Virus record (IMG/VR): IMGVR_UViG_3300009610_000995
Span: 1-20,167 of that record
Reading direction: 5' to 3' (one strand)
DNA length: 20,167 bases
DNA from: a virus
The notes beneath the pieces were generated by a model. The model was not told where the DNA came from and did no database searches. It was given only the letters and a program-made list of their open reading frames with translations. This document shows, in pieces, positions 699 through 12,368 of the stretch (position 1 is the first letter of the stretch; each line of letters begins with the position of its first letter). A program made the position numbers and the translations under genes.

Positions 699-727
699 AT
701 AATAGCCTGAATCTAGGTAGATGTCAA
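699..727 (-). promoter_or_regulatory. sigma70-type promoter TTGACA-17-TATTAT
   Basis: On the minus strand, TTGACA (727-722) and TATTAT (704-699) are separated by exactly 17 bases. It lies upstream of the ATG at 674, leaving a short leader with a Shine-Dalgarno site. The spacer holds the operator-like palindrome TCTAGGTAGA (712-721), so a bound protein would block RNA polymerase. Confidence 0.78.
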
Positions 728-757
728 GAGGCTAGGTAGATATATTTGTTAGGTAGA
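712..757. promoter_or_regulatory. operator cluster, three TCTANNTAGA-like sites
   Basis: Three sites follow each other: TCTAGGTAGA (712-721), GCTAGGTAGA (731-740) and a weaker GTTAGGTAGA (748-757). Their starts are 19 and 17 bases apart. The same arrangement occurs at 1834-1879 and, slightly changed, at 6480-6526. The first site fills the promoter spacer and the second abuts the -35 box. The third overlaps the stop codon of the upstream PAPS-reductase-like gene. The core is a 10-bp imperfect palindrome, as expected for a dimeric repressor. Confidence 0.68.
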
Positions 758-1609
758 GAAGTCGAACTCCATCTGCAAGGAAGTTTCGTACACCTCGCAA
801 CTCTCCGAGCAGGTGCCGCTATCCTCTTCCCGGAACATCCGGCTGGTGTCGCCGGCCTCGCGGAATCCCTGGAGCAGGTCGGCGGTGGACTGAAAGCCGC
901 GGAAGATCTTCCTCGGGCCGGGCACGTAATTCGGACCCACATCCGAGTACAAATCCTCGAGCTTCAGGAAGAAGTCGAAGCGCTCCGGCTCGGTACGGTA
1001 GATGGTGTTGAGCTTGGGCGCAGACTTCTGAAAGCAGGTGACGCAGTTGCCGAGATGCTCGGGGATCTGGAGATCCCAATCGAACTGTTCGAAGAACCAC
1101 AGGACATCCTGTTTGCGGGTGGGCCACCGGTCGACGAGCGGGTAGATGATGCGCTGCGAAGTGGCGTTGGGGGAAACGCGGCGGCGCTCGTCGGCGCGGA
1201 TGCCGATGGCGATCTGGTAGTCCTTGCCCCACAACGAGTCAGTGTAGGAGGCCATCGTATTGCCTTTGAGTTCGCGGGTGCAGAGCTTGAAGACTTTGTT
1301 GGGCAGGCCGTACTTGCCGGCGACTGCTTCGAAGGGTTCGCCGTGGCGGCTGGCGGTTTCATACCGGACCACCTGATGAGTGCAGGATTTGCGGCCGGGG
1401 TTCACGTTTGCTTCCAGCCATACCAGTCCGAGACCCAGATGGCGATCGACGGCATCGGCAAAGCGGAGCGTGTCTTCATGCTCGAGGCCGGTGTTGGCGA
1501 AGGTGAAGGCCATGTTGTACTCGTCGCGGCAGTGCTCCATGAGTTTGAAACACATATAGGCCGAGGTCCGGCCGCCCGAGAACGATACCTGCAGGTTGGG
1601 GCGGCTCAT
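749..1609 (-). CDS. PAPS reductase-like PP-loop enzyme
   Basis: This 286-residue protein belongs to the phosphoadenosine phosphosulfate (PAPS) reductase-like branch of PP-loop (adenine nucleotide alpha hydrolase) enzymes. The N-terminal nucleotide loop is SFSGGRTSAYM (residues 9-19). It is followed by FANTGLEHEDTL (37-48), a CTRELK block (110-115) and a CVTCFQK pair of cysteines (189-195) that could bind metal or take part in thiol chemistry. Phage members of this family are common, but their substrates are mostly unknown, so sulfate reduction should not be assumed; nucleic acid modification is equally possible. The ATG at 1609 follows AGAAGAA, five bases after the stop of the 66-aa gene, so the two form an operon driven from 1821-1849. 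A second, different PAPS-reductase-like protein, containing an intein, lies at 8258-9964. Confidence 0.85.
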   Translation of the reverse strand: MSRPNLQVSFSGGRTSAYMCFKLMEHCRDEYNMAFTFANTGLEHEDTLRFADAVDRHLGLGLVWLEANVNPGRKSCTHQVVRYETASRHGEPFEAVAGKYGLPNKVFKLCTRELKGNTMASYTDSLWGKDYQIAIGIRADERRRVSPNATSQRIIYPLVDRWPTRKQDVLWFFEQFDWDLQIPEHLGNCVTCFQKSAPKLNTIYRTEPERFDFFLKLEDLYSDVGPNYVPGPRKIFRGFQSTADLLQGFREAGDTSRMFREEDSGTCSESCEVYETSLQMEFDFST

Positions 1610-1614
1610 TTCTT

Positions 1615-1815
1615 CTATGCTGGCGGCGCCACTTCGATCACGGCGAGGTCTTTGCCTTCCGGGTCATCTTCGAGGGACCAATGATCGCCGTCTTCCCAAA
1701 CGATGAGTTTGCCCTCTTCGGCCATCATCACATCGCCCCGGCTCGGCTCTTCGCCTTCGTTGCGCCATTCGACCTCGGTGCCGAGCGGCAAACTGTTGAA
1801 CTGTTCGATCGTCAT
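1615..1815 (-). CDS. hypothetical acidic 66-aa protein
   Basis: This 66-residue acidic protein begins MTIEQFNSLPLGTEVEW and looks like a small beta-barrel fold: short strands separated by charged turns (GDVMMAEEGKLIVWEDG). I do not recognise a named family. It is the first gene of a two-gene unit with the PAPS-reductase-like enzyme. The start at 1815 fits the conserved N-terminus, but there is no strong Shine-Dalgarno site. The predicted -10 box ends only about five bases upstream of the ATG, so this gene may be translated from a leaderless transcript. A function linked to the downstream PP-loop enzyme is possible but only inferred from position. Confidence 0.7.
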   Translation of the reverse strand: MTIEQFNSLPLGTEVEWRNEGEEPSRGDVMMAEEGKLIVWEDGDHWSLEDDPEGKDLAVIEVAPPA

Positions 1816-1820
1816 GCTTC

Positions 1821-1849
1821 TATACTCTCATTTTCTATCTAGATGTCAA
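1821..1849 (-). promoter_or_regulatory. promoter TTGACA-17-AGTATA, near-leaderless
   Basis: The -35 box TTGACA is at 1849-1844. With a 17-base spacer the -10 position reads AGTATA (1826-1821); TATAGA at 1824-1819 is an alternative with a 19-base spacer. Either choice places the transcription start at or within the ATG at 1815. The operator TCTATCTAGA (1834-1843) fills the spacer right after the -35 box, as in the promoter at 699-727. Confidence 0.62.
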
Positions 1850-1879
1850 GAGGCTAGGTAGAATAATCTGCTAGCTATT
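1834..1879. promoter_or_regulatory. operator cluster, second copy
   Basis: TCTATCTAGA (1834-1843), GCTAGGTAGA (1853-1862) and a degenerate GCTAGCTATT (1870-1879) are spaced 19 and 17 bases apart, exactly as at 712-757. The bases between the first two sites, including the -35 box, are identical in both clusters. The third site overlaps the stop codon of the 61-aa gene upstream. Confidence 0.68.
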
Positions 1880-2060
1880 CTAAATCCTGCGGCTGGTACA
1901 CGTAGGGATCGGCGGAGCGCACCCGCTCGAGGCCGGCCAGCCGCGCCTCCAGGTCGAGGATGCGCTTCTCGGTCTTGCCGGCAGTCCACGAGGCTACCAT
2001 CACATTGCCCAAGGTGAGGCCGCAGGCTAAGAGAGCGGCGGTATAGCAAAGCCAGTCCAT
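1875..2060 (-). CDS. 61-aa membrane-anchored protein with helical tail
   Basis: This 61-residue protein has one N-terminal hydrophobic segment (about residues 2-25, starting MDWLCYTAALLACG). A charged helix follows (KTEKRILDLEARLAGLERV, about 29-47) that could form a short coiled coil, then a polar C-terminus. The start was set at 2060 because this ATG overlaps the upstream TAA (TAATG); a longer reading to 2195 only adds sequence overlapping the upstream gene. A bitopic protein with a cytoplasmic coiled coil would fit a spanin-like or membrane-attached accessory role, but nothing decides between these. It is the last gene of the run that begins at 4048. Confidence 0.68.
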   Translation of the reverse strand: MDWLCYTAALLACGLTLGNVMVASWTAGKTEKRILDLEARLAGLERVRSADPYVYQPQDLE

Positions 2061-2335
2061 TACGATTCTTCCTCCAGGATTCTCACGTCGCACTCGCAGT
2101 AGAGCAGCGGCATGCCGCACTCGACGCACCGCACCGGCTCGGGTTCCGGCTCCGAGCACGCGCACTCGATGAGCGGGAGCTTGCACCACGGGCACAGCGT
2201 ATCTTTGGTTTCGGCGGCCTCGCGGTAGGCGGCTTCGAAGTTCTTACGGGTTCCCGGGGAGATGAAGTCTCCGGCCAAGCCTTGCATGCTGCGCAGCAGG
2301 TCTTCCCAGGTCTCTTCGGGCAGGCTGATGGTCAT
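2060..2335 (-). CDS. small cysteine-rich zinc-binding protein
   Basis: This 91-residue protein has a helical N-terminal half and a cysteine-rich C-terminal half. The cysteines come in two units: CPWC followed by CAC (about residues 48-60), and CVEC followed by CEC (about 69-82), separated by a Pro-Glu linker. This looks like a tandem zinc ribbon or treble-clef-like site and suggests nucleic acid or protein binding. The ATG at 2335 overlaps the upstream stop (ATGA) and its own TAA overlaps the next ATG, so it is embedded in a tightly coupled operon. I cannot assign a family name. Confidence 0.75.
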   Translation of the reverse strand: MTISLPEETWEDLLRSMQGLAGDFISPGTRKNFEAAYREAAETKDTLCPWCKLPLIECACSEPEPEPVRCVECGMPLLYCECDVRILEEES

Positions 2336-2922
2336 GGCGCTACCCCCAATTGCGGGAGAGCCTGCGACAGCGCCTGCATCTCCCTCATCGAGCGGATCGA
2401 ATAGAAAATCACCTTGCCATTACTCATCGGGAAGTGGCTCTTCTGGTGGCGCCGGATGACACCGTGCTCATCGAGCACCGGGTCGAGATACACCTTGATA
2501 TCGCGGAGGTGATTGTCGGCGGCAAAGTCGGGGCCCAGCTCTTTAATCGTGGCTTGTCTCCAACTGTAGAAGTTGACGCGCACTTTCATGGCGGTGCGCT
2601 CCTCGCCGGCATCGATGGTGATCGTTTTCTTCGCCGTGGGATCGCCTCCAACCTGCTGACAGATCATGAGATAGATCTCGTGGCCGGGGATAAGGTCGCG
2701 CCGCTTGACCGACTCGTTGGACTTGGCTTTCGCCTTGGTCCTGGCGGTCACGCGCTTCTTGTAATCCCCCTCGGCCGCCGGCAACCGCGGGGCGTTGCCC
2801 ATGTTCTTCACATCGACGGCGAGCGGAGTGGTGGCGCCCTCGAACACCTTGGGCTTGGGATCGGTGTACGGATGAATCTCGCGCTCACGCGGAGCGGGGA
2901 TGATCGGACGGGGCAGGCTCAT
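2332..2922 (-). CDS. hypothetical 196-aa phage protein
   Basis: I do not recognise this 196-residue protein. The N-terminal 60 residues are proline-rich and basic (MSLPRPIIPAPRERE). The centre is very lysine- and arginine-rich (KKRVTARTKAKAKSN), and the C-terminal half (from about residue 75) looks like a folded alpha/beta domain with YLMICQQVGG, KVRVNFYSWRQATIKELG and VIFYSIRSM. The basic stretch suggests DNA or RNA binding. The start at 2922 is chosen because it forms an ATGA overlap with the upstream gene; the open frame continues to 3150, but that extension overlaps the two upstream genes and has a poor composition. Confidence 0.72.
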   Translation of the reverse strand: MSLPRPIIPAPREREIHPYTDPKPKVFEGATTPLAVDVKNMGNAPRLPAAEGDYKKRVTARTKAKAKSNESVKRRDLIPGHEIYLMICQQVGGDPTAKKTITIDAGEERTAMKVRVNFYSWRQATIKELGPDFAADNHLRDIKVYLDPVLDEHGVIRRHQKSHFPMSNGKVIFYSIRSMREMQALSQALPQLGVAP

Positions 2923-3080
2923 GGTTCGGTGGTCTCCTTGGGATTGCGGGGATCGGCGGCGCTGCGCTTGTCCGGCGGCCAGGGATGGCGGCCATAGAGC
3001 ATCAGGTCCAGGTGCCAGTCCCTCACCATGGCGAGGACAGCGTACTCGATAAGCTTGCCCGCTTTCTCTTCCAGGGTCAT
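2919..3080 (-). CDS. hypothetical 53-aa protein
   Basis: This 53-residue protein starts MTLEEKAGKLIEYAVLAMV and has one long amphipathic helix, then a HLDLMLYGRHPWPPDK stretch and a polar tail. No family is recognised. Both ends overlap neighbours by four bases (ATGA at 3077-3080 and at 2919-2922), which strongly supports this start over the longer reading to 3128. The coupling means it is probably made in fixed ratio with the zinc-binding protein upstream and the 196-aa protein downstream. Confidence 0.65.
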   Translation of the reverse strand: MTLEEKAGKLIEYAVLAMVRDWHLDLMLYGRHPWPPDKRSAADPRNPKETTEP

Positions 3081-3304
3081 AAGACTCCCTCCAACGGAAT
3101 GTTGCGGGCAACGCGGCACGGCGGACACACGCGCGCCCGCACCAGGCCAAGCCTCAACCGCTCACCGGCGGCCGGCTCGAGGCAGAAATGGCACCGCGGC
3201 TCTGAGCGATGCGCCCGCGGGATCATCACCTCGAGATACTCCACAGGCACCGCCTCGCCGGTCATGCGAATGCCTTTATGCAAATAGGCTTGTCTACGGA
3301 TCAT
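3077..3304 (-). CDS. 75-aa zinc-finger-like protein
   Basis: This 75-residue basic protein carries two CxxC pairs, CHFC (about residues 38-41) and CPPC (about 60-63), with about 18 residues between them, a typical four-cysteine zinc knuckle. The rest is arginine-rich, so nucleic acid binding is plausible. The ATG at 3304 overlaps the stop of the upstream gene (ATGA) and the stop overlaps the next ATG. An internal Met at residue 14 is an alternative start but lacks this overlap. Several other short four-cysteine proteins occur in this window (2060-2335, 6957-7148, 7943-8161). Confidence 0.72.
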   Translation of the reverse strand: MIRRQAYLHKGIRMTGEAVPVEYLEVMIPRAHRSEPRCHFCLEPAAGERLRLGLVRARVCPPCRVARNIPLEGVL

Positions 3305-3630
3305 GGCTTTTCTTTCAAGGGCTTGGCTTGCCGATTAGGCTGGACATGCAGATGGGGATAACGGATACGGAGATCCTCGAGCACCTCCGCCGCCGCCAGC
3401 TTACTCGCCTGATCCCGCCGCCTCACCCGCACCCTGAAATCCTCGGCGATGGCCTCGAAATACACGGCCAGCCCCGACAACGCATCGTCGCCGAAGTAGG
3501 CGAGCAGATACGAAGCCTCGGCATACGCGGCGCTCCGCAGCAGATCCGGATGCGACGACGAAAGCCGCTCCCGGGACAGACCCGAGAACGGCTTGCGCGG
3601 AATCGGTTTTACCCGGTTCTCTGGCTCCAT
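3301..3630 (-). CDS. hypothetical 109-aa helical protein
   Basis: I do not recognise this 109-residue protein. It has a basic, proline-containing N-terminus and then looks almost wholly helical, with alanine-rich, acidic and arginine-rich stretches (AAYAEASYLLAYFGDD, about residues 34-49; RVRVRRRDQASKLAAAEVLE, about 66-85). The ATG at 3630 lies four bases after the stop of the upstream secreted protein. Its last dozen codons include one copy of the dispersed 12-base repeat GCTTGCCGATTA (3326-3337, plus-strand reading), so the C-terminal residues are partly dictated by that repeat. Confidence 0.68.
   Translation of the reverse strand: MEPENRVKPIPRKPFSGLSRERLSSSHPDLLRSAAYAEASYLLAYFGDDALSGLAVYFEAIAEDFRVRVRRRDQASKLAAAEVLEDLRIRYPHLHVQPNRQAKPLKEKP
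3326..3337. repeat. dispersed 12-bp repeat, copy 1
   Basis: GCTTGCCGATTA on the plus strand, 22 bases from the start of the next leftward gene and inside the 3' end of the 109-aa gene. Identical copies lie at 4194, 4503 and 6775, all in the same orientation. Confidence 0.7.
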
Positions 3631-3634
3631 GCGG

Positions 3635-4048
3635 CTAGTACACCAGCACTCCCATCACCGGAGCCATCGGATAGGCCGGCAGCACCGGCGTGTAGTAGGT
3701 CATCGCCGGACGCACCGGCGAGGGAGCATGGTACACCGGATAGCCTCCCGTGTAGGACGGCCGCGGCGCAATCACGATCGGCGCCTCGGTGGCATACGGA
3801 TTGTTGGCGGACTGATTCGAGTACGGCGAACCATACCTGCCATACGGGTTGTTGACGCTGTCGGACTGGTACGGCGAGCCATACCGCCCATACGGATTGG
3901 CGATGCTATTCGGGTCATACCGATTCGACGAGAGATTGCCGAGATACTTGCCGTCGCGGCTGACGACGATCGGAGATTGGGCCGACAGCGTGATGCCCGC
4001 GGCCAGCGCCAGTGTGCAGAACCGGCTAAAGCCAGTGATGAGTTTCAT
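3635..4048 (-). CDS. exported protein with NPYGRYGSPY repeats
   Basis: This 137-residue protein has a clear Sec signal peptide: MKLITGFSRF with a basic start, a hydrophobic core and a likely cut after LSA (about residue 23). The mature part opens with SRDGKYLGNLSSNRYDPNS, then carries two full NPYGRYGSPY repeats and a degenerate NPYAT copy (about residues 50-87), ending in a Pro/Tyr-rich tail. I know this repeat pattern from small secreted bacterial proteins of unknown function; it is unusual next to phage replication genes and may be a host-derived morphon. The ATG at 4048 follows the AAAGGATC plus AC-rich leader, which rules out the earlier in-frame TTG at 4069. A hammerhead ribozyme and a promoter precede it. 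Confidence 0.78.
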   Translation of the reverse strand: MKLITGFSRFCTLALAAGITLSAQSPIVVSRDGKYLGNLSSNRYDPNSIANPYGRYGSPYQSDSVNNPYGRYGSPYSNQSANNPYATEAPIVIAPRPSYTGGYPVYHAPSPVRPAMTYYTPVLPAYPMAPVMGVLVY

Positions 4049-4075
4049 TGTGTTGTGTGATCCTTTCAAGGTAAA

Positions 4076-4136
4076 AGCCTGTCTCTTCAGGCGCGGGAGG
4101 CTATCCCCGCGCGACCCGGAGCAGCCGGGTTTCGAC
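4076..4136 (-). ncRNA. hammerhead ribozyme (type II), copy C
   Basis: Minus-strand order: GAAA core (4133-4130); stem III CCCGG/CCGGG (4129-4125 with 4119-4115) with loop CTGCT; T4114 paired to A4130; cleavage-site C at 4113; stem I GCGCGGG/CCCGCGC (4112-4106 with 4097-4091) with loop GATAGCCT; CTGAAGA core (4090-4084). Stem II is GAC (4083-4081) with GTC (4136-4134), followed by AGGCT (4080-4076), complementary to AGCCT in the stem-I loop. All universal hammerhead core bases are present. Predicted cleavage is between 4113 and 4112, 64 bases upstream of the ATG at 4048. This copy has the best stem II of the three. Confidence 0.86.
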
Positions 4137-4147
4137 CTTTGTTCTAC

Positions 4148-4175
4148 TTTATACGCTTTTGTCTGACTTTGTACA
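4148..4175 (-). promoter_or_regulatory. candidate promoter TGTACA-16-TATAAA
   Basis: On the minus strand TGTACA (4175-4170) and TATAAA (4153-4148) are 16 bases apart. The predicted start near 4141 would put the first transcribed bases right at the stem-II strand of the hammerhead at 4076-4136. No TCTANNTAGA operator is present here. Confidence 0.5.
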
Positions 4176-4193
4176 GTTATTTCGTTGAGCTAA

Positions 4194-4205
4194 GCTTGCC
4201 GATTA
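4194..4205. repeat. dispersed 12-bp repeat, copy 2
   Basis: GCTTGCCGATTA on the plus strand. On the minus strand it supplies the TAA stop of the 26-aa reading frame at 4203-4283 and lies about 19 bases upstream of the candidate promoter at 4148-4175. Confidence 0.7.
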
Positions 4206-4283
4206 CACCCGCCGCCGCAAGCGCAGCCCGACCGGCCACAGCAGCAGCCAGAGCATGAGGCCAAACGGCCGGCGCGCGGTCAC
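4203..4283 (-). CDS. candidate 26-aa membrane peptide
   Basis: A 26-codon frame begins with GTG at 4283, overlapping the TGA stop of the upstream gene as GTGA, a classic coupling arrangement. The peptide has a basic start (TARRPFG), a single hydrophobic stretch rich in Leu and Trp (MLWLLLWPVGL, about residues 10-20) and an RRR end, so it could insert into the membrane. Its TAA stop falls inside the dispersed 12-base repeat. No family can be named for so short a frame, and it may be fortuitous; the overlap and composition are the only evidence. Confidence 0.4.
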   Translation of the reverse strand: MTARRPFGLMLWLLLWPVGLRLRRRV

Positions 4284-4462
4284 CGCTTGACCGCCGGATA
4301 GAACAGGGAATACCCGTTATCCGCCCAATTCGACCGCTTGACCGCGGCGCCCGTGCGATCCGCCTCGAGCTGAGCCGCGGCATTAGCCTGCTTCAATTCC
4401 GAGTCGCGAAACGATACCCGCTCGCCATCGACGGCGACGTAGCAATACTTCAGTTCCCGCAT
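4280..4462 (-). CDS. hypothetical 60-aa protein
   Basis: This 60-residue protein begins MRELKYCYVAVDGERVSF, a predicted beta hairpin, followed by a helix rich in Ala, Gln and Glu (SELKQANAAAQLEADRTG, about residues 21-38) and a C-terminal strand ending YSLFYPAVKR. I do not recognise the family. The ATG at 4462 was chosen because it follows a GGGAAAC site and an AC-rich spacer matching the leader of its neighbours; the frame is open further upstream, but that extension lacks a leader and would overlap the end of the 47-aa gene. It is one of several small adaptor-sized proteins in the same operon. Confidence 0.68.
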   Translation of the reverse strand: MRELKYCYVAVDGERVSFRDSELKQANAAAQLEADRTGAAVKRSNWADNGYSLFYPAVKR

Positions 4463-4502
4463 GTTGTTGTTTCCCACTTTCTGTTGAATAATCTCGAGCT
4501 GG

Positions 4503-4514
4503 GCTTGCCGATTA
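4503..4514. repeat. dispersed 12-bp repeat, copy 3
   Basis: GCTTGCCGATTA on the plus strand, in the 142-base gap between the 47-aa and 60-aa leftward genes, 41 bases upstream of the ATG at 4462. Confidence 0.7.
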
Positions 4515-4604
4515 GAAGCTCCCAATTTGCCCCAGGAACGCGCGCGCCCTTCGGGTGGCTCCGGACCCACCAGGGAGACCGCCGCAACGCCCCACGCGCT
4601 ACCC

Positions 4605-4748
4605 CTACTGCGTTTGCCAGGGATTCTCCTGGACTTCGACCTTCTCGCCATGGAGCAGATGCGCCCACGCAATATCCTGCGCATCTTCGCGCCTTATGCC
4701 GTGATACCGCGCCACGCCATTGACGTGAACCGTGTAGATTGTCTTCAT
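4605..4748 (-). CDS. hypothetical 47-aa protein
   Basis: This short gene encodes 47 residues starting MKTIYTVHVNGVARYHG, with a helix (REDAQDIAWAHLLHGE, about residues 20-35) and the end VEVQENPWQTQ. The ATG at 4748 is preceded by AAAAGGGACACACAAC, a near-perfect match to the shared leader of leftward genes, which is the main evidence that it is real. The pattern of a short beta hairpin plus one helix resembles the 60-aa protein just downstream (MRELKYCYVAVDGERV), so the two could be distant relatives. Function unknown. Confidence 0.68.
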   Translation of the reverse strand: MKTIYTVHVNGVARYHGIRREDAQDIAWAHLLHGEKVEVQENPWQTQ

Positions 4749-4821
4749 GTTGTGTGTCCCTTTTGTGCGATAGATTCGCGCCTACGCTCACCCCGCGGAT
4801 AAGCGTAATGCGAGCCCACCA

Positions 4822-5061
4822 CTAGACCAAACGCAGCGCACAGGCCAAATGCATCTCTTCATGCCCCATCGATACCACCCGCCCGCCACCATACAGACAC
4901 CACGTGCTATCCACACCCGCATAATGGCTGTGGTTGTGCACCGTCAGCGCCACACCCTGTGCGCGATAAACGCGCGTCTCGTGGTTCCGGCCTTCCATGA
5001 AGGACTCCGCTAACGTGAGTCCGTGTCTTTGCGCCAATACTTCGAAACGTATGCTTTTCAT
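4822..5061 (-). CDS. hypothetical 79-aa protein
   Basis: This 79-residue protein begins MKSIRFEVLAQRHGLTLAES and is mixed alpha/beta, with several histidines (HNHSHYAG, about residues 42-49; GHEEMHLA, about 66-73) and a Cys. The histidine-rich centre could bind a metal, but no known motif is clear. The ATG at 5061 is preceded by AAGGGAACACACAACA, the strongest form of the leftward initiation leader. It sits 36 bases after the stop of the Gp88-like gene. I do not recognise the family. Confidence 0.72.
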   Translation of the reverse strand: MKSIRFEVLAQRHGLTLAESFMEGRNHETRVYRAQGVALTVHNHSHYAGVDSTWCLYGGGRVVSMGHEEMHLACALRLV

Positions 5062-5097
5062 TGTTGTGTGTTCCCTTCTATTCCCAAATCTTCGCGC

Positions 5098-5871
5098 CTA
5101 AGCGGCCGCGCCAATCTGTATCAACTGCGATTGCACAACGAACGAACTCTGGACCTTCTTTGCCTCTCCCTTTGCCCGTAGCCCGACGATCACCCCCCGC
5201 GGATCGAGGAAACGAACGTCATGCTCATCGCCATCAATCACGCGATAACCGTTCCACGATTCAGGCAAATCTTGCCCGCGACGAGTATCAAAAACAACGG
5301 AGACATTCACGCCATGCGCCAGAGCCTCGAGACACTCCGCCAGATTCTCCCCGCTGTACGAAAACGTCAGCTGATAGTTGTAACGCGTCCGCAACCACGA
5401 TTTCGGCAACTTCGTGTAATCGTAGAACATCACCTGCGGAAACTCGCGTGCCATCATCATCGCCACCCAAGGCAAATCAGAAGTCCCGTTAAAGCGAACG
5501 GCCGGCTTCAATCCCTCCCTCTCCGCTTCCCGTATCAATGCCTTGATATCCCTCCGCAACGCATTCAGAAACGACTCGCGATCCTCCCACAACCAAACCG
5601 TCTTCCCAATCCGTGCCCGCTTGATCTCAGGAAATATCTTCGATCGACCGCTGTCATACAGACATGCTTCGATGCATCCCTCCGTAGCGAACGTACAAAC
5701 ATTCATCACCCCAGATTCATTCGCCGGCGCCAAATAGCAGATACCCGTCAATACCCCTAAACTCTCTCCCTTGATCGTCTTGGCGTTCTGTGTCTGCAAC
5801 ACAGCCCCGCGCTTGTACCCTTCCTGATACCCTGCTACTACCGCCGACCGCAACCCTTCAATAAATCCCAC
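5098..5871 (-). CDS. Gp88-like phage protein
   Basis: This 257-residue protein matches the phage Gene Product 88 family known from mycobacteriophages and many metagenomic phages. The diagnostic stretch is GVLTGICYLAPANESGVMNVC followed by EGCIEACLYDSGR (about residues 39-76), giving a C59-x6-C66-x3-C70 cysteine cluster. Later conserved-looking blocks are VRFNGTSDLPW (125-135), FYDYTKLPKSW and LRTRYNYQLTFSYSGEN. The family has no proven function; the cysteine cluster suggests metal or cluster binding. The start is GTG at 5871, chosen because AAGGGA lies eight bases upstream, right after the hammerhead element at 5886-5939. Confidence 0.85.
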   Translation of the reverse strand: MGFIEGLRSAVVAGYQEGYKRGAVLQTQNAKTIKGESLGVLTGICYLAPANESGVMNVCTFATEGCIEACLYDSGRSKIFPEIKRARIGKTVWLWEDRESFLNALRRDIKALIREAEREGLKPAVRFNGTSDLPWVAMMMAREFPQVMFYDYTKLPKSWLRTRYNYQLTFSYSGENLAECLEALAHGVNVSVVFDTRRGQDLPESWNGYRVIDGDEHDVRFLDPRGVIVGLRAKGEAKKVQSSFVVQSQLIQIGAAA

Positions 5872-5885
5872 TGTTCTAATCCCTT

Positions 5886-5939
5886 AGCCTGATCTTCAGA
5901 CCACGGAGGCTATCCCGTGATGACGCCCGTAGGCGTTTC
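5886..5939 (-). ncRNA. hammerhead ribozyme (type II), copy B
   Basis: Minus-strand order: GAAA (5939-5936); stem III CGCC/GGCG (5935-5932 with 5927-5924) capped by TACG, a UNCG-type tetraloop; T5923 paired to A5936; cleavage-site C at 5922; stem I ATCACGG/CCGTGGT (5921-5915 with 5906-5900) with loop GATAGCCT; CTGAAGA (5899-5893); then TCAGGCT. AGGCT (5890-5886) complements AGCCT of the stem-I loop. Stem II next to the core is weak. It begins six bases after the stop of the 73-aa gene and ends beside the AAGGGA ribosome binding site of the Gp88-like gene. Cleavage is predicted between 5922 and 5921. Confidence 0.84.
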
Positions 5940-5944
5940 ACTCC

Positions 5945-6166
5945 CTATAACGCCCGGTACCGTGCCGCAAAATGCATCTCCAAACGCAACAACGGTCCAT
6001 ACGCTTCCACGTCTATTCCCGGCTCTGCCTTCGCTTCCCGGATCAGTGAAAGCATCCACATCAGCGCCTTCTTCTCATCCATAACCTTCGCTCCCGTCTC
6101 CGCTTGCCACGCCTTCAGCAGCCCTTCCCTCGTCAACGTCGCCTTCATCCAAAATGCCTTGTTCAT
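5945..6166 (-). CDS. hypothetical 73-aa protein
   Basis: This 73-residue protein is largely helical: MNKAFWMKATLTREGLLKAW, then MDEKKALMWMLSLIREAKAE (about residues 29-48), an acidic loop (PGIDVEAYGP) and a final helix LLRLEMHFAARYRAL. No cysteines, signal peptide or membrane segment. I do not recognise it. The ATG at 6166 follows AGGGAACACACACAA, the canonical leftward leader. It is bracketed by two hammerhead elements (copies A and B), so self-cleavage at both would release it as its own monocistronic RNA. Confidence 0.72.
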   Translation of the reverse strand: MNKAFWMKATLTREGLLKAWQAETGAKVMDEKKALMWMLSLIREAKAEPGIDVEAYGPLLRLEMHFAARYRAL

Positions 6167-6184
6167 TTGTGTGTGTTCCCTATC

Positions 6185-6238
6185 AGCCTGATCTTCAGTG
6201 CACAGAGGCTATCCTGCGCAGACGCCCAAAGGCGTTTC
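6185..6238 (-). ncRNA. hammerhead ribozyme (type II), copy A
   Basis: Minus-strand order: GAAA (6238-6235), starting one base after the upstream stop; stem III CGCC/GGCG (6234-6231 with 6226-6223) with loop TTTG; T6222 paired to A6235; cleavage-site C at 6221; stem I TGCGCAG/CTGTGCA (6220-6214 with 6205-6199) with loop GATAGCCT; CTGAAGA (6198-6192); then TCAGGCT. AGGCT (6189-6185) complements AGCCT in the stem-I loop (6210-6206). Stem I differs from copy B but stays paired. TCAGGC could alternatively pair with GCCTGA in the end of the upstream gene. Cleavage is predicted between 6221 and 6220. Confidence 0.84.
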
Positions 6239-6239
6239 A

Positions 6240-6458
6240 CTATTCAGGCAACTCCAATCCACGCGCGTCGAGCATCTCCTGCAACGGCATCTCCTGCTGA
6301 AACTCCTCTGCCTTCAACTCCACGCGCGTCCCATATACCGCCTCTAGTTCTATCTCCAACTCCGCCGTCGCCGCCCACAACGCCTCTTGCGCTTCCGCCG
6401 CTATCCTCAGCAATTCGTATGCTTTCGTCAATCGCTTGTCATGTGCTGTGTTGTTCAT
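6240..6458 (-). CDS. hypothetical 72-aa helical protein
   Basis: This 72-residue protein appears wholly helical and acidic: MNNTAHDKRLTKAYELLRIA, then alanine/glutamate-rich repeats (EAQEALWAATAELEIELEAV, about residues 22-41), and a C-terminal EFQQEMPLQEMLDARGLEL. It could form a coiled coil. No family is recognised. It is the first gene of the leftward operon starting from the promoter at 6465-6493. No Shine-Dalgarno site precedes the ATG at 6458, and the -10 box ends only six bases upstream, so translation from a leaderless mRNA is likely. Its stop codon is immediately followed by hammerhead copy A. Confidence 0.7.
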   Translation of the reverse strand: MNNTAHDKRLTKAYELLRIAAEAQEALWAATAELEIELEAVYGTRVELKAEEFQQEMPLQEMLDARGLELPE

Positions 6459-6464
6459 ATTCAG

Positions 6465-6493
6465 ATAGTAACTTGAACCTCTATCTAGAACAA
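6465..6493 (-). promoter_or_regulatory. promoter TTGTTC-17-TACTAT, leaderless
   Basis: On the minus strand TTGTTC (6493-6488) and TACTAT (6470-6465) are 17 bases apart. The predicted transcription start coincides with the ATG at 6458. An operator palindrome TCTATCTAGA (6480-6489) overlaps the -35 end and spacer, as in the two other leftward operator promoters. Confidence 0.66.
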
Positions 6494-6526
6494 TAGGACT
6501 TAGGTACTGTTTTGAGATTACCTACA
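6480..6526. promoter_or_regulatory. operator cluster, third copy
   Basis: TCTATCTAGA (6480-6489) is followed 19 bases later by CTTAGGTACT (6499-6508, core TAGGTA kept) and 18 bases later by ATTACCTACA (6517-6526, the inverted form of the core). The 19-base first step matches the clusters at 712, 1834 and 9967. The outer sites are weaker than in the other clusters. Confidence 0.55.
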
Positions 6527-6774
6527 AGTTGCTACGATCGCAAAGATTCGTAGCACACTTTCACTGCCTTTGGTCTGCGACCGACCGCTCCTTCGCCGGG
6601 TATTTCAGGCCAATGCCACAGCTCACAGCTCGTTTCGTGGGCAAAGGAGCCTACCACAGGGGGAAGATGCGCCAATGCCTGCGCGCAGCGCAGCCTTTGG
6701 TGCAATCGATGCTCGTATGCCGCAGCCGTTGAGGGCTCTCGAGGGCTGCGAGGCCGGCAATCGCACAGCGCCTG

Positions 6775-6786
6775 GCTTGCCGATTA
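6775..6786. repeat. dispersed 12-bp repeat, copy 4
   Basis: GCTTGCCGATTA on the plus strand inside the non-coding divergent region, the only copy outside the leftward gene block. Confidence 0.7.
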
Positions 6787-6903
6787 CAGGCATGCATTGC
6801 ATGCAGCCGGCATGCGAACAAGGGCCGGGGCACCCCCATGCCGGGGGGGCGGTGTGGTTTCAGTTAGGCTCGGAGCGAAATCTGTCGGGTATTTTGGAAT
6901 AGT

Positions 6904-6921
6904 GATTCACGTAGGTGAATC
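6904..6921. promoter_or_regulatory. palindromic operator candidate GATTCAC-N4-GTGAATC
   Basis: A perfect 7-bp inverted repeat with a 4-base centre lies 36 bases upstream of the first rightward gene. Its sequence is unrelated to the TCTANNTAGA sites, so it may bind a different regulator. No clear -35/-10 pair could be placed around it. Confidence 0.45.
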
Positions 6922-6956
6922 GGTTAGGTTGTGGAAAAGAGTAAGATGGGGGCGAT

Positions 6957-7148
6957 ATGGGGCCTTTGTATCTGATACGAAGAGGGGAAAAAGCGCGGCC
7001 GATGTGTGTAGGGTGCAAGAAGGCTGGGGATGAGGGGGTAGTAGTGACAGCGGGGCGTGTGCACATCTGCAAGGCGTGCAAAGGGAAGCTGAACCGAGGG
7101 GAAGGGCTGTATGTGGATCAGGAGTACGTGAAGCGGTGGGCAATGTAG
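6957..7148 (+). CDS. small four-cysteine zinc-ribbon protein
   Basis: This 63-residue protein has a CVGC pair (about residues 17-20) and a CKAC pair (about 39-42) separated by a GVVVTAGRVHI strand, the spacing of a small ClpX-type or RecR-like zinc ribbon. It ends in a basic, helical tail (YVDQEYVKRWAM). Such modules bind nucleic acid or act as protein adaptors. The start is uncertain: ATG 6957 has a G-rich upstream stretch, while ATG 7002 directly before CVGC would give a 48-residue protein. It heads the short rightward module that also includes the winged-helix protein. Confidence 0.58.
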   Translation: MGPLYLIRRGEKARPMCVGCKKAGDEGVVVTAGRVHICKACKGKLNRGEGLYVDQEYVKRWAM

Positions 7149-7160
7149 TAATGTCTATAC

Positions 7161-7565
7161 GTGAACGGAAAAACCGATCAGTCTGTGAACGGAAATTCCG
7201 TTCAGTCGAAGAGGTACGCGCGGATCCCTGCGACGGTCCTGCATGACGTGGAACTGAGTATAGGGGCGAAGCTGGTGTATGCGGAGATTGCGCTGCACGT
7301 ATGGCAAGGATCAGCGGCATGGGTAGGGCAGAGGCGGCTGGCGAAACAGTTGGGGTTTCACCAGGAGACGGTGTTGCTGGCGATCCGGGAATTAGCAGCG
7401 CGGGGGCACCTGAAGGTAAGCGGGGAGGGGAAGGCGCGGCGGACGTACGTGCTGTTGTCGCCGGTATTCTCGCAAAAGCAGGGGCAGGAGACGGTGATTG
7501 TGTCGGCGCCGGGTGGGGCTCGCCGGATGGTGAGTGTGGATTTGGAGCGGGAGAAGGTGGGATGA
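7161..7565 (+). CDS. winged-helix (HTH_36-like) DNA-binding protein
   Basis: This 134-residue protein has a helix-turn-helix domain of the kind found at the N-terminus of phage and plasmid replication initiators and some regulators: YARIPATVLHDVELSIGAKLVYAEI (start of domain, about residue 19), then WVGQRRLAKQLGFHQETVLLAIRELAARGHLKV (about 54-86), with the recognition helix near HQETVLLAIRELA. The C-terminal part lacks a recognisable domain. The GTG start at 7161 sits inside a palindromic DNA repeat (7162-7204), so the protein may bind its own gene start, as replication initiators or autorepressors do. Its stop overlaps the next ATG (ATGA). Confidence 0.78.
   Translation: MNGKTDQSVNGNSVQSKRYARIPATVLHDVELSIGAKLVYAEIALHVWQGSAAWVGQRRLAKQLGFHQETVLLAIRELAARGHLKVSGEGKARRTYVLLSPVFSQKQGQETVIVSAPGGARRMVSVDLEREKVG
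7162..7204. repeat. tandem palindromic iterons at the 5' end of the HTH gene
   Basis: Two units start with TGAACGGAA, 24 bases apart. The second is a perfect 19-base palindrome, TGAACGGAA-A-TTCCGTTCA (7186-7204). The first (7162-7180) has the same left arm and a CCGATCA right arm with one change. Both are followed by GTC. They encode a repeated VNG in the protein. Confidence 0.62.
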
Positions 7566-7765
7566 AGCTGCCGGATTTGCGGGAAGCGTTTCTCGACGGG
7601 AAGACGAAGCTGCGGCGGTCGAGCTGGGAGAGTGGGCGGTATATCTGGGCGCCTCCGCTGCCCAATGTGGCGGTGCTCGATTCGTCGACGGGGACGAAGT
7701 GGATTTCGAATCTTGATGATGGGGATCACGAGGCGGAGGACTGGGAAGTTCTCGAGGTGGTGTGA
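7562..7765 (+). CDS. DUF2829 protein, possible Tad2-like anti-Thoeris factor
   Basis: This 67-residue protein matches the short DUF2829 pattern: an N-terminal LREAFLDGKTKLRRSSWESG (about residues 6-25; the usual EAL-lk-GkkvaR--W), a central strand region (AVLDSSTGTKWI) and the closing HEAEDWEVLEV (about 56-66). Some DUF2829 proteins of phages, named Tad2, bind the cyclic ADP-ribose-type signal of the Thoeris defence system and so block it. Whether this copy keeps that activity cannot be seen; it is shorter than typical members. The ATG overlaps the stop of the HTH gene (ATGA), so the two are co-expressed early-type genes. Confidence 0.7.
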   Translation: MKLPDLREAFLDGKTKLRRSSWESGRYIWAPPLPNVAVLDSSTGTKWISNLDDGDHEAEDWEVLEVV

Positions 7766-7825
7766 TAGGCTGAAGCCGTCAGACTGGTTTGGTTGGAACT
7801 TCTAGCAGAGCCATATGCATCGGGG

Positions 7826-7850
7826 GCCGCGGTGAATCAGACATCGCGGC
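7826..7850 (+). terminator. possible terminator hairpin
   Basis: A 6-bp perfect stem GCCGCG/CGCGGC with a 13-base loop is followed by TCTTGGTGTTT. It lies 61 bases after the DUF2829 gene. The T-rich tail is interrupted, so termination is uncertain. Confidence 0.35.
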
Positions 7851-7903
7851 TCTTGGTGTTTATGCCATAATCAGGAACGTTAGTCATTTGTGTATGTGTT
7901 CCC

Positions 7904-7934
7904 GTGGCGCCGGCAGATCCCACTCCGGCGCCAC
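7904..7934. other. 10-bp perfect inverted repeat
   Basis: GTGGCGCCGG and CCGGCGCCAC are separated by 11 bases. The hairpin ends eight bases before the ATG at 7943. On the minus strand it directly precedes an orphan copy of the AC-rich leader. Either a terminator relic or a translation-control hairpin is possible. Confidence 0.5.
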
Positions 7935-7942
7935 AAATATTT

Positions 7943-8161
7943 ATGCTCACTTCCCTCAAATGCCCGATGTGCCGAGCCTCCAGCGTCTCACTATGTGAGA
8001 CGGGGGAATGGCTGTGCGTTCATTGCGGCTGCTGCGGGATTGCCGGCGTTGCCACCGGGAAGGTGTTCTCGATCCGGGAGCGGCGGAGCGTGCGGATGAT
8101 GGCCCAGGTTCCCAGGAAACCGGCGGCGGCTGAAACGGTCGCCCCTCCGCCGGCATCTTAA
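7943..8161 (+). CDS. 72-aa zinc-binding protein
   Basis: This 72-residue protein begins MLTSLKCPMCRASSVSLCET and continues WLCVHCGCCGIAG, giving a CPMC/CVHCGC four-cysteine zinc ribbon with extra cysteines (about residues 7-32). The rest is basic and proline/alanine-rich with no recognisable domain. It may bind nucleic acid. The start was placed at ATG 7943 just before the first cysteine pair; a GTG at 7904 would lengthen it but that sequence forms the inverted repeat. No good Shine-Dalgarno site is seen, so expression is uncertain. It ends 96 bases from the convergent intein-containing gene. Confidence 0.55.
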   Translation: MLTSLKCPMCRASSVSLCETGEWLCVHCGCCGIAGVATGKVFSIRERRSVRMMAQVPRKPAAAETVAPPPAS

Positions 8162-8257
8162 GGCCAGGGCGCAGCGGCCGCAGACCGAGCAAGGGTTTTG
8201 TTATCCAACCTGTGGATTCCCGTTGCGCCCACTGATAGCACCGCGATAGCAGTGATA

Positions 8258-9964
8258 TCACTCCCCGGCGATCTTCTCTTCGGCGAACTGGCAGAAGAAC
8301 GAGCAGGAGAAGTTCAGCTCGCCCCCGCGTTTGCCGGGTCCGGGCGGCAATTCGGCGAGGCTCATCCGCTCGCCTTCCCGTGGCCCCGAGCGGTGCTGCA
8401 GGAAGTAGGCGCCTTCGCCGATCTCTTCCTGGATCTTCTTCACCGCGGCAAAGCGTTCCGGGAAATCGGCGCGGATGGCCTGCCAGTAGGACTGGCCGCC
8501 CTTGGGGCAGCCGAGGCAATTGCCGGTGAGGATGTTGCCTTCGAGCGTAAAGGCTTGCCCCTCCGGCACCACCGCGCAGAACACCTCTTCGACCCGCTCG
8601 GTTGGTTCCACCGATACCACGATCCACGGATGCGGCTCGCGCGGGTTCGACCACAGGAAGCGCCGCCGGTGCTCTTCGATGAGAAAGAAATCCTCGCGCA
8701 GGGTGTCTCCGATCAACGAGAGCGAGTAGAGCGCCGACTCCTCGCGCCCGGCAAAGCCGCGCCGCATCACCTTCCGGATGGAGTTGACGCCGATCCCCAA
8801 GCGAATGGCCACGTTCCGCGCGAATTCCACATGCGTGTAGTTAGCCGAGGATAGGGTGTAATCTCCTCGCTCGGACACGCAGCCATCGGCGGCGAAGTAT
8901 CCAGCTAGCCACCCGTATAGGTAGCTCTGGCACTCCTCGAGCGGGGGTAGATCCTTCCAGTGCCTCGGCAGATCCTTCACCTCGATCCCAGCTTGGGAGG
9001 GACGAGTGGGGCTGAGTGGAAAGTAGCGGAGGAGTTCGCGGTCCTTCTCGCCGCACAGGACCACCGTCCCGGCCGTATTCAACGTACTCTGGCGCGAGCC
9101 GTCCCCGAAGACGATCCCTTGGGCAATCCCGAAGGCCGAGGGCCGCACGCGCGCTCCTAGGCGGCCGAACACGCTCCGCAGCCGGTCGCCCGGTCTCAGT
9201 TCCTCGGTAGTGCGCTCGAGTTTGGCCGCGTGCACGTACTGCTTGACGAACCAGCGATGGCCCGCCGTAGCGAAGATGACCTTCTCGGTAGAGTTGCGCC
9301 GAACAGACAGTTTCATCAACGGCTGCTCGCCGAAGGAGTGGATCGAGGCTTCTTCCCACCCGCCCCCGGCTCCCCGCACTCGCACGGTCTCCCCCACGGC
9401 AGCGCCCAGCGTCCGGACCCCCATGTCCGTCAGGAATTCGGTGTCGCCCGAAAAACAATTCGCATTGTCGTAGCCGAGTTCGTACATGATGGGGATGCGG
9501 AGGCCGGCGCGCTCCACGATGGCGAGGCAATCGCCTTTGTCTAAGCCCTCCTCGATCAGCGGCGCCCGGAATGTCTCATCCGGGTAAAGGTCTTGGAGAT
9601 TCGAGAAGCGGTCTTCTTCCTCGCGCGTGAAGCCGAATACCGACACGTCGCCCGGCAACATGATCTTTTTGAGCAGCTTGCGCTTCAGCTCCTGCGAGCA
9701 CGGCGCCCCGTTCGGCCCCTTGATGTAGCGCTTCCTCTTCCACACCTCGTCGGTCGACGCTCCGTAGGTTTCGTCCCGCAGCACCGTCACAGGGTGGCCA
9801 AACCAGGTTTCGCAGTCGGCGAGGAACCGCCGGTTGTCCGGGTGCTCCTCCACGAGGAACGCATTCACGATCACCACGTCATTGTGATCCTGTTCGGCTA
9901 GGATCAGTTTAGTCGCCACCGCCGAGGCCGCGCCGCACGAGAACTGGCATACGTACCTGGACAT
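8258..9964 (-). CDS. PAPS reductase-like protein containing an intein
   Basis: This 568-residue precursor is a phage PAPS-reductase-like PP-loop protein split by an intein. The N-extein (1-169) has the loop QFSCGAASAVATKL (7-20), EEHPDNRRFLADC (39-51), KGPNGAPCSQELK (82-94) and ends GYDNAN. The intein spans C170 to N482. The C-extein (483-568) starts CLGCPKGGQSYW and ends near CSFFC. Splicing would join GYDNAN to CLGC and give a 255-residue enzyme of normal length for the family; the insertion sits exactly at the conserved cysteine pair. Substrate unknown. The ATG at 9964 has AGGTGG about 11 bases upstream and faces a divergent promoter carrying an operator palindrome. Confidence 0.9.
   Translation of the reverse strand: MSRYVCQFSCGAASAVATKLILAEQDHNDVVIVNAFLVEEHPDNRRFLADCETWFGHPVTVLRDETYGASTDEVWKRKRYIKGPNGAPCSQELKRKLLKKIMLPGDVSVFGFTREEEDRFSNLQDLYPDETFRAPLIEEGLDKGDCLAIVERAGLRIPIMYELGYDNANCFSGDTEFLTDMGVRTLGAAVGETVRVRGAGGGWEEASIHSFGEQPLMKLSVRRNSTEKVIFATAGHRWFVKQYVHAAKLERTTEELRPGDRLRSVFGRLGARVRPSAFGIAQGIVFGDGSRQSTLNTAGTVVLCGEKDRELLRYFPLSPTRPSQAGIEVKDLPRHWKDLPPLEECQSYLYGWLAGYFAADGCVSERGDYTLSSANYTHVEFARNVAIRLGIGVNSIRKVMRRGFAGREESALYSLSLIGDTLREDFFLIEEHRRRFLWSNPREPHPWIVVSVEPTERVEEVFCAVVPEGQAFTLEGNILTGNCLGCPKGGQSYWQAIRADFPERFAAVKKIQEEIGEGAYFLQHRSGPREGERMSLAELPPGPGKRGGELNFSCSFFCQFAEEKIAGE
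8519..9457 (-). mobile_element. LAGLIDADG homing-endonuclease intein (313 aa)
   Basis: The intein begins CFSGDTEFLTD (block A, catalytic C170) and has the block B motif ATAGHRWF (TxxH, residues 232-239). Two LAGLIDADG-type motifs follow, IAQGIVFGDGS (280-290) and LYGWLAGYFAADG (349-361). It ends VVPEGQAFTLEGNILTGN followed by the +1 Cys. The terminal Asn (N482) is present but the usual penultimate His is Gly. Splice residues C1, TxxH, N and +1 Cys are all in place, so splicing is plausible. The endonuclease motifs look intact, which suggests it is still able to home. Confidence 0.9.
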
Positions 9965-9986
9965 ACTCTAGTTTACCACCTATACT
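9958..9986 (+). promoter_or_regulatory. promoter TGGACA-17-TATACT, near-leaderless
   Basis: TGGACA (9958-9963) and TATACT (9981-9986) are 17 bases apart on the plus strand. Eight bases follow before the ATG at 9995, so the transcript would start at or next to the start codon. It drives the rightward late block. The same 30 bases separate it from the divergent ATG at 9964. Confidence 0.62.
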
Positions 9987-9995
9987 CTAGGTAGA
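9967..9995. promoter_or_regulatory. operator pair at the divergent 9964/9995 promoter
   Basis: TCTAGGTAGA (9986-9995) abuts the -10 box and ends on the A of the ATG; a degenerate TCTAGTTTAC (9967-9976) lies 19 bases before it. The 19-base step matches the three leftward clusters, so the same protein probably controls both directions here. Confidence 0.6.
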
Positions 9996-10495
9996 TGCCT
10001 GATCCAGTCAACGGGGATGAATCCCCCGCCAAGAAATCCCACAAGCGCGTCAGCCTTTCGAACTCCTGGAACACCGAAACCGGCACGCTTCGGATCGAGT
10101 GGCGCGACCATCAGGAAACCGTCTTCAACCTCGGCGAGCTGCCGCAGGCCATCGTCAATGACCTTTGTTATCATGGACTTCTGGCGAGGATTCAGCAGGC
10201 ATATGTTTCCGCCGCCGGTTCCCCGCCCGCGGCGCGGGACCGCGCACACAAGCTTTGGGAAAGCCTGAAGTCGGGCGACTGGGGCTTGAGCCGCGGGGAG
10301 AAATCCTACAGCATCGTGGTGCAGGCCCTGGCCGTCCTATTGAAAATCTCAGAAGGCGAGGCGCAGGCGCGCTTTCACTCGCTCTCTGCCGACAAGCGCA
10401 AGGAAGTGGCGAGCCGGAGTGACGTGGTGGCCCAGGTCGCCAAGCTCAAAGCCAAGGCCAATCCCCTCCAAAGCTTAGACTCGATTTTGAAGTGA
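9995..10495 (+). CDS. hypothetical 166-aa phage protein
   Basis: This 166-residue protein has a beta-rich start (TGTLRIEWRDHQETVFNLGELP, about residues 29-50 in pieces), then a helical centre (YHGLLARIQQAYVSAAG) and a helical, basic C-terminus with DKRKEVASRSDVVAQVAKLKAKA. It resembles a widespread phage protein type with a short beta segment, a GDW/GLSRG loop and a C-terminal helix of repeated K and A, but I know no function for that type. It is the first gene after the operator-controlled promoter, without a Shine-Dalgarno site. The next gene starts one base after its stop. Confidence 0.72.
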   Translation: MPDPVNGDESPAKKSHKRVSLSNSWNTETGTLRIEWRDHQETVFNLGELPQAIVNDLCYHGLLARIQQAYVSAAGSPPAARDRAHKLWESLKSGDWGLSRGEKSYSIVVQALAVLLKISEGEAQARFHSLSADKRKEVASRSDVVAQVAKLKAKANPLQSLDSILK

Positions 10496-11189: not shown

Positions 11190-12368
11190 GTGGTCTACTA
11201 CAACGAGATTGACGAAGCCAAAGCCGAGTGGTTAAAGGAACTGATCAAGGAAGGAGTCATTGCCGATGGCCTCGTCGACCGGCGTTCAATTAGAGATGTT
11301 TCCCCTGGAGACCTGGACGGATTCATCCAGTGCCACTTCTTTGCCGGTGTGGGAATCTGGTCCTACGCCCTCACCCTCGCCGGCTGGCCCGCCGATAGAG
11401 CCGTGTGGACCGGCTCCTGCCCCTGCGGACCCTTCTCTTCCGCCGGCAAAAGAGCAGCGCAAAACGATCCAAGGCATCTTTGGCCAGACTTCTTTCGCCT
11501 CATCGAAGCACGAAGACCTGTCTGCGTCCTTGGCGAGCAGGTATCGTCGATTGACGGCCTCGGCTGGCTCGACCTTGTACTCGCTGACCTGGACTCAGCG
11601 GCTTACACCCTCGGGGCACTCGATATCTGCGCAGCGGGCGTCGGCGCTCCCCACATCCGCCAGAGGCTCTATTGGGGCGCGCGGCTGGCCCACGCCCACC
11701 AGCGAGGATGCCAGCCAGTCGAACCGGTCGAACATGGAGGAGCGGATAGCGCGCACAAACTGGAATTCGATCTGCCTCGGGCAAATGGCCCATCTGGCGG
11801 GCTGGAACACGCCGAGGGCGACGGACGGATCGAACGGCGGGCCGAATCAGGCCAACGGGGCCCTGTCGGCGGATGCGGCGATGTGCGGCTGGGCGACTCC
11901 GACGATGCGCGACTCGACCAACGCGGCCAACGCGACATGCTCCCGCTCGAACCCGGACTCGCAGCACCACGACGGCTGGACGCTGATCGACCAATCGAGG
12001 TTGGTGGGCTGGGCCACTCCGAAAGCCTCGGATGGGGACGGCGGCAGGACGACGATGACCAAGGGCGGGGGCAACTCCCATTTACAGATCGAGGCCCGTT
12101 TAACGGCTTCTGGCGAGGGGCCCACTGGGTTCTTACTCGGCCCCAACGGCTGGGAGACGTACCCAGCCTCCGGCCAATTGAACCCAGGCCACTCCCGCTG
12201 GCTGATGGGAATCCCGGCGATCTGGTGCGAGTGCGCCATCCGGGCTTCCCGCTCGCTCAAGGCGAAGAAGCGCGCGTCCTCCGCCTCCGCGGTTACGGGG
12301 ACGCAATTTGCGCCAGTCAGGCCGCCTTCTTCGTGAAAGCTTTCATGGAAGAGTTGGAAGAAGAGTAG
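11190..12368 (+). CDS. C5-cytosine DNA methyltransferase
   Basis: This 392-residue protein is a phage cytosine-C5 DNA methyltransferase. Visible motifs are I (FFAGVG, about 50-55, SAM binding), IV ([12 protein letters not shown], 75-86, with C79 the catalytic cysteine of the PC motif), VI (GEQV, 115-118, the ENV site), VIII (IRQRLYW, 156-162) and a C-terminal motif X-like [14 protein letters not shown]. Residues about 165-330 form a glycine- and arginine-rich stretch that serves as target recognition region and is coded in parallel with another protein in the +1 frame. The GTG start at 11190 lies two bases after the upstream stop. It probably modifies phage DNA against host restriction. Confidence 0.87.
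11266..12336 (+). CDS. protein encoded inside the methyltransferase gene, another frame
   Basis: A 356-residue frame lies wholly inside the methyltransferase gene, shifted by one base. It does not look like a chance frame. It repeats a GWxTPxxxD motif four times ([36 protein letters not shown]) and has [20 protein letters not shown] and the ending [17 protein letters not shown] recall this pattern from proteins annotated in many phages beside or inside cytosine methyltransferases, with no known function. The ATG at 11266 has AAGGAG nine bases upstream, a good ribosome site; an earlier TTG at 11260 is less likely. Serine/proline richness is partly imposed by the overlap. Confidence 0.62.

Follow-up and report, generated by a model that had tools for sequence, protein, structure and literature searches.

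A conserved palindromic motif forms a putative operator set at three orthologous promoters of a tailed-phage group and was copied to a fourth promoter in one member

We found that the 10-bp palindrome TCTANNTAGA, which has a 2-bp centre, is a non-random and conserved motif by the measure of sequence statistics and comparison. It constitutes a set of putative operators at three orthologous promoters, here called A, B and C, which is conserved in a group of tailed phages and has been copied to a fourth promoter in the DNA analysed here. One regulatory protein very probably binds the motif. We favour, with reasonable confidence, the more specific hypothesis that the sites are operators of one dimeric repressor that would block RNA polymerase at A, B and C.

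The Phage Window and Related Genomes

The window, i.e. the whole stretch of DNA analysed, is an entire virus record of 20,167 bases and represents a fragment of a tailed phage. It carries genes for a large terminase (TerL), a head-tail adaptor/portal, a RecT-like protein, a cytosine methyltransferase and an HNH endonuclease. Relatives were gathered by means of TerL, the HTH protein and DNA patterns. They comprised five near-complete genomes of 43-45 kb (G001, G002, G003, G007 and G014; together about 221 kb) and three shorter ones (G004, G005 and G006). Both ends of G001 lie within the portal gene, so that this genome is probably near-complete and circularly permuted. All TerL matches in the phage collection showed less than 60% identity. 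A TerL search of a one-genome-per-species collection (genome_contigs) found no relative, and therefore no prophage form is known.

Several spots in G001, G003, G007 and G014 carry HNH endonuclease genes, some of them adjoining TerL and portal. Two long overlapping plus-strand frames of the window, 11190-12368 and 11260-12336, each match a DNA-methyltransferase PHROG: phrog_363 at 4e-63 and phrog_1008 at 1.5e-26, respectively. Both of these frames may be coding, because the second one is 64% identical in G001.

The Palindrome Lies at Four Sigma-70-Like Promoters

The motif core is CTANNTAG, most commonly in the form CTACCTAG or CTATCTAG. A first-pass annotation of this DNA had reported exact or near matches at 712, 1834, 6480 and 9986, and we found the motif to be exact at all four positions, as compared with about 0.07 copies expected. 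Markov simulations of orders 1-3 gave 0.06-0.075 exact sites per window, with a maximum of 1, and produced no CTANNTAG pair at 19 bp. Copies with one mismatch are present at 731 and 1853. The same annotation had placed the sites in promoter spacers or at the -35 and -10 boxes; indeed, all four exact sites are located at sigma-70-like promoters, where they overlap the -35 box, the spacer, the -10 box or the start region. The same operator-like sequence is thus found at two or more promoters above chance, as in a repressor-operator regulon. A literature search for the literal motif gave unrelated papers among the 15 matches listed of 58.

Promoter A directs transcription leftward, ahead of ORF 387-674 and the RecT-like gene. 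Its elements, and those of a duplicate of it, are as follows.

699-704, minus strand: -10 box TATTAT of promoter A, with a 17-bp spacer
712-721, minus strand: operator O1 of promoter A (TCTACCTAGA in the direction of transcription), exact motif immediately downstream of the -35 box
722-727, minus strand: -35 box TTGACA of promoter A (TGTCAA on the plus strand), read directly
731-740, minus strand: operator O2 of promoter A (TCTACCTAGC), 19 bp upstream of O1 and identical in G001
748-757, minus strand: operator O3 of promoter A (TCTACCTAAC, 2 mismatches), 17 bp beyond O2, with a counterpart in G001
749-1815, minus strand: cassette of a PAPS-reductase-like ORF (749-1609) and a small ORF (1615-1815), between the two copies of promoter A
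1834-1843, minus strand: O1 of the duplicated promoter A (TCTAGATAGA), exact motif
1844-1849, minus strand: -35 box TTGACA of the duplicated promoter A, read directly
1853-1862, minus strand: O2 of the duplicated promoter A (TCTACCTAGC), 19 bp from O1

Counted from the hexamers, the operators of promoter A have their centres near -25.5, -44.5 and -61.5, and O3 overlaps the final codons of the PAPS-reductase ORF. The duplicate has a weak -10 box, the best being TATAGA at 1819-1824 with a 19-bp spacer. The copies at 712 and 1834 share 23 identical bases, TCTACCTAGCCTCTTGACATCTA, and by this likeness the pairs 712/731 and 1834/1853 are not independent observations, but copies of one promoter. The sequence upstream of 1834 and that downstream of 712 both match the single promoter A of G001, which places the cassette between two copies of promoter A. 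The cassette was not found at the corresponding place in the relatives compared. This promoter duplication around the PAPS-reductase cassette suggests a route by which accessory genes may enter an existing regulon. The cassette gene is the second PAPS-reductase-like gene in the window; the other, ORF 8258-9964 on the minus strand, carries a LAGLIDADG-containing insert that is probably an intein.

Promoter B opens the leftward arm and precedes its first gene; over about 55 bp this element is almost unchanged among the relatives. Its -10 box is TACTAT at 6465-6470, separated by a 17-bp spacer from TTGTTC. A LexA-like reading of AGTACCTAAGTACT in this promoter was considered.

6480-6489, minus strand: O1 of promoter B (TCTAGATAGA), exact motif, overlapping the -35 box
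6488-6493, minus strand: -35-like box TTGTTC of promoter B, read directly and conserved
6499-6508, minus strand: second element of promoter B (AGTACCTAAG), diverged from the motif by 4 mismatches, yet conserved in relatives

Promoter C is directed rightward and precedes an ORF that is near-leaderless. In the window, its ATG begins 9 bases past the -10 box (9981-9997), and in the alleles of relatives that were read the start lies within about 15 bases of that box.

9958-9986, plus strand: promoter C, TGGACA, 17-bp spacer, TATACT, read directly
9967-9976, plus strand: weak second site of promoter C (TCTAGTTTAC, 3 mismatches), within the -35/-10 spacer; a better match, TCTAGTTAAG, is found in G003
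9986-9995, plus strand: operator of promoter C (TCTAGGTAGA), exact motif, which starts on the final base of the -10 box and extends to the ORF 9995 start codon
9995-10495, plus strand: ORF 9995, 166 aa, with homologues in all seven relatives holding the region (frameshifted in G004)

The Putative Operators Are Conserved in Related Phages

In the relatives, promoters A, B and C again carry the motif. O1 of promoter A has orthologues in G001, G002, G003, G007 and G014, and O1 of promoter B is kept in these five as well as in G005 and G006. Counterparts of the promoter C operator are found in G001, G002, G003, G004, G006, G007 and G014. The first-pass annotation had made its claim depend on enrichment of the motif at promoters in relatives, and a scan of the five near-complete relatives bears this out: all nine exact motifs fall inside A, B or C, intervals that make up about 0.75% of the sequence of these genomes and were drawn after the site positions had been seen. 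When the genomes were scanned with a matrix trained solely on the six sites of the window, the top three to five matches of each were likewise located at these three promoters; for G001 this applied to the top three, and the C site tied for fourth. The best matches in a reversed-sequence control reached 13.5-17.2 bits, so that the margin is modest. Weak C sites scored 10.4 bits in G001 and 11.7 bits in G014 with the window-trained matrix, and 8.4 bits in G007 with a larger matrix.

At A and C the sites persist, although the promoter sequence around them has been replaced between relatives: A exists in three alleles and C in several, and none of these lacks a site. A strict geometry containing TTGNCA was found, among 2.9 million viral contigs, in one related phage and two unrelated AT-rich contigs only. 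In the latter two, L049 and L050, the match lies inside an ORF and was treated as chance. Taken together, the putative operators are conserved at orthologous promoters, as in a regulon, and the earlier proposal of a shared operator for one dimeric regulator at several promoters appears well supported by this conservation. The proposal that the regulon is phage-wide did not survive, as strong sites are limited to three promoters and the structural half of the five near-complete genomes contains none.

The spacing of the sites is less regular than previously described. Pairs exactly 19 bp apart had been proposed at all four positions. Such pairs are seen at 712/731 and 1834/1853, but not at 6480 and 9986, where the partner sites 6499 (CTTAGGTACT) and 9967 (TCTAGTTTAC) carry four and three mismatches out of eight, and are matched equally well by 8% and 1.7% of window positions, respectively. 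Similarly, among the third sites proposed for the three leftward clusters, the one at 748, with 2 mismatches, is the sole convincing case, whereas those at 1870 and 6517 have 3. Spacings in the relatives are 17, 18, 19, 20 and 22 bp, mostly within 17-22, with 10, 12 or 32 in some alleles. At promoter A they are 17 + 19 in the window and G001, 17 + 22 in G003 and G007, and 32 in G002 and G014; at promoter C they range from 10 to 20 depending on the phage. Since the spacing differs among alleles, strict helical phasing is no property of the system. A fixed 19-bp pair is, on these alleles, an overstatement, and the idea of cooperative dimers two helical turns apart is supported only in part, as the spacing varies and 19 bp corresponds to 1.8 turns rather than 2.

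Candidate Binding Proteins and Mode of Action

No gene for the binding protein had been obvious in the window. This held, among the matches listed, after Pfam and PHROGs profile scans of two sets of selected ORFs from the relatives: A2, of 129 ORFs, and A5, of 56, the latter being almost wholly a subset of A2 chosen without obvious endonucleases, helicases and winged helices. Among the families listed (for A2, 25 of the 39 Pfam families and 25 of the 115 PHROGs families), none was CI/Cro-like, ribbon-helix-helix or integrase, and the DNA binders were replication-type winged helices and endonucleases. A role in lysogeny is not supported, because no integrase or CI-like match was among those listed. 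The scans covered selected ORFs, with the A2 families partly listed, and may therefore have missed a binder. We infer that the binder is phage-encoded, in which case it probably comes from a family missed by current profile libraries.

The palindromic form of the motif points to dimeric binding, and the overlap of the sites with the -35 box, spacer, -10 box or start favours occlusion and hence repression. According to the repressor hypothesis, one dimeric DNA-binding protein would bind TCTANNTAGA in clusters of one to three operators, which would cover the -35/spacer region of the leftward promoters A and B and the stretch from spacer to start codon at the rightward promoter C. When bound, the repressor would keep RNA polymerase off A, B and C, and the leftward arm and ORF 9995 would be shut down or delayed. 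The fourth promoter in the window would have joined the regulon via duplication of A around the PAPS-reductase cassette.

A possible but rather doubtful alternative is that a host transcription factor binds the sites, either exploited by the phage or acting on it, so that no phage gene for the binder is needed. This accords with the lack of a classical phage repressor among the matches listed for the scanned ORFs, and with a TerL that has no relative in the one-genome-per-species collection and no known prophage form. However, the reason why a phage that shows no lysogeny genes should keep host-repressor operators on strong early promoters is less apparent. Moreover, the host is not indicated by the window. 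ORF 3635-4069 (minus strand), a possibly host-derived gene for a repeat-rich, secreted-looking protein with NPYGRYGSPY repeats, has homologues in four unrelated bacterial genomes, and host inference through it was rejected.

Within the repressor hypothesis, ORF 9995 is a weakly supported candidate for an autoregulated operator-binding protein. Its homologue in G002 is basic (pI 9.5). The AlphaFold2 model of ORF 9995 had a mean pLDDT of 69, and a fold search returned significant viral matches that were unnamed, with TM-scores of at most 0.35, none of them informative; tblastn against the phage collection found no homologue. We consider it unlikely that this near-leaderless ORF, with its own operator at the start, represents an undescribed DNA-binding family that represses A, B and C for timing in a phage without a lysogeny module. 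A model of another ORF, at 2332, was uninformative (mean pLDDT 45).

It also seems quite unlikely that the regulator is an activator, which would raise transcription at a defined stage from sites in the spacer or upstream of the -35 box, in the manner of the phage P1 late activator at its late promoters. Promoter A does have operators upstream of its -35 box (centres about -44.5 and -61.5), an activator could bind at -25 and -44, and the -35 box of promoter B, TTGTTC, is poor. On the other hand, the -35 box of promoter A is a perfect TTGACA in the window, G001, G002 and G014, and the site at C is placed between the -10 box and the start codon; such positions favour occlusion.

The sole clear HTH protein in the window is encoded between B and C.

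7161-7565, plus strand: HTH_36 winged-helix protein of the replication-initiator type, by Pfam and PHROGs

Its gene location, its assignment to replication initiation/HTH_36 and the iteron-like 17-22 bp spacing of the repeats would suit a protein that binds the sites as iteron-like repeats or for autoregulation. Nevertheless, we regard this as very unlikely and rejected the protein as operator binder. By tblastn, by which a very diverged homologue would be missed, no counterpart was detected in G004 or in G014, although G014 retains all three promoters. The winged-helix protein between B and C is of three types (window, G001 and G007; G002 and G006; G003), and the putative recognition helix residues differ between the window and G001, yet 36 bp of promoter A are identical between these two. 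Finally, although 2.4 copies with at most one mismatch are expected by chance in the window, a mere coincidence or a non-specific property of strong promoters in this GC-rich genome is contradicted by the exact-site counts, the positional restriction and the conservation across relatives, and is extremely improbable.

The repressor hypothesis, if the binder is phage-encoded, would imply early-gene repression in phages without visible lysogeny genes. The comparison also defines a putative regulon by one consensus that is shared among three orthologous promoters; the TerL of this phage group lacks a match of at least 60% identity in the phage collection.

Comparison with Known Systems

In lambda-type CI/Cro systems, clusters of two to three short palindromes overlap the -35/-10 regions of early promoters, and the window likewise has clusters of short palindromes overlapping the -35/-10 regions of promoters. 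In contrast to lambda, no CI/Cro-like protein or integrase was among the matches listed for the scanned ORFs, the palindrome is merely 10 bp with a 2-bp centre, and A, B and C do not share one common control region. The late-promoter activator (Lpa) sites of phage P1 are inverted repeats in the promoter spacer region, a placement also seen here, but here the -35 boxes of the promoters can be recognised, and one operator occupies the interval from the -10 box to the start codon. The Lpa family had a single match to a conserved protein, which was not significant (E = 0.093). Unlike plasmid iterons, which cluster at one origin and go with a conserved Rep, the sites are distributed over three promoters, and the winged-helix protein is variable and was not detected in G014.

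The mycobacteriophage stoperators are bound by one repressor at several genome sites, which downregulates early lytic promoters; the stoperator sequence is asymmetric, the sites are numerous across the genome, and the repressors also terminate elongation (PMC9283540). The phages studied here resemble stoperator phages in having several sites for one, here proposed, repressor, but differ in that the sites are palindromic and their strong copies confined to three promoters, instead of being asymmetric, many and partly outside promoters. The kind of system is a familiar one.
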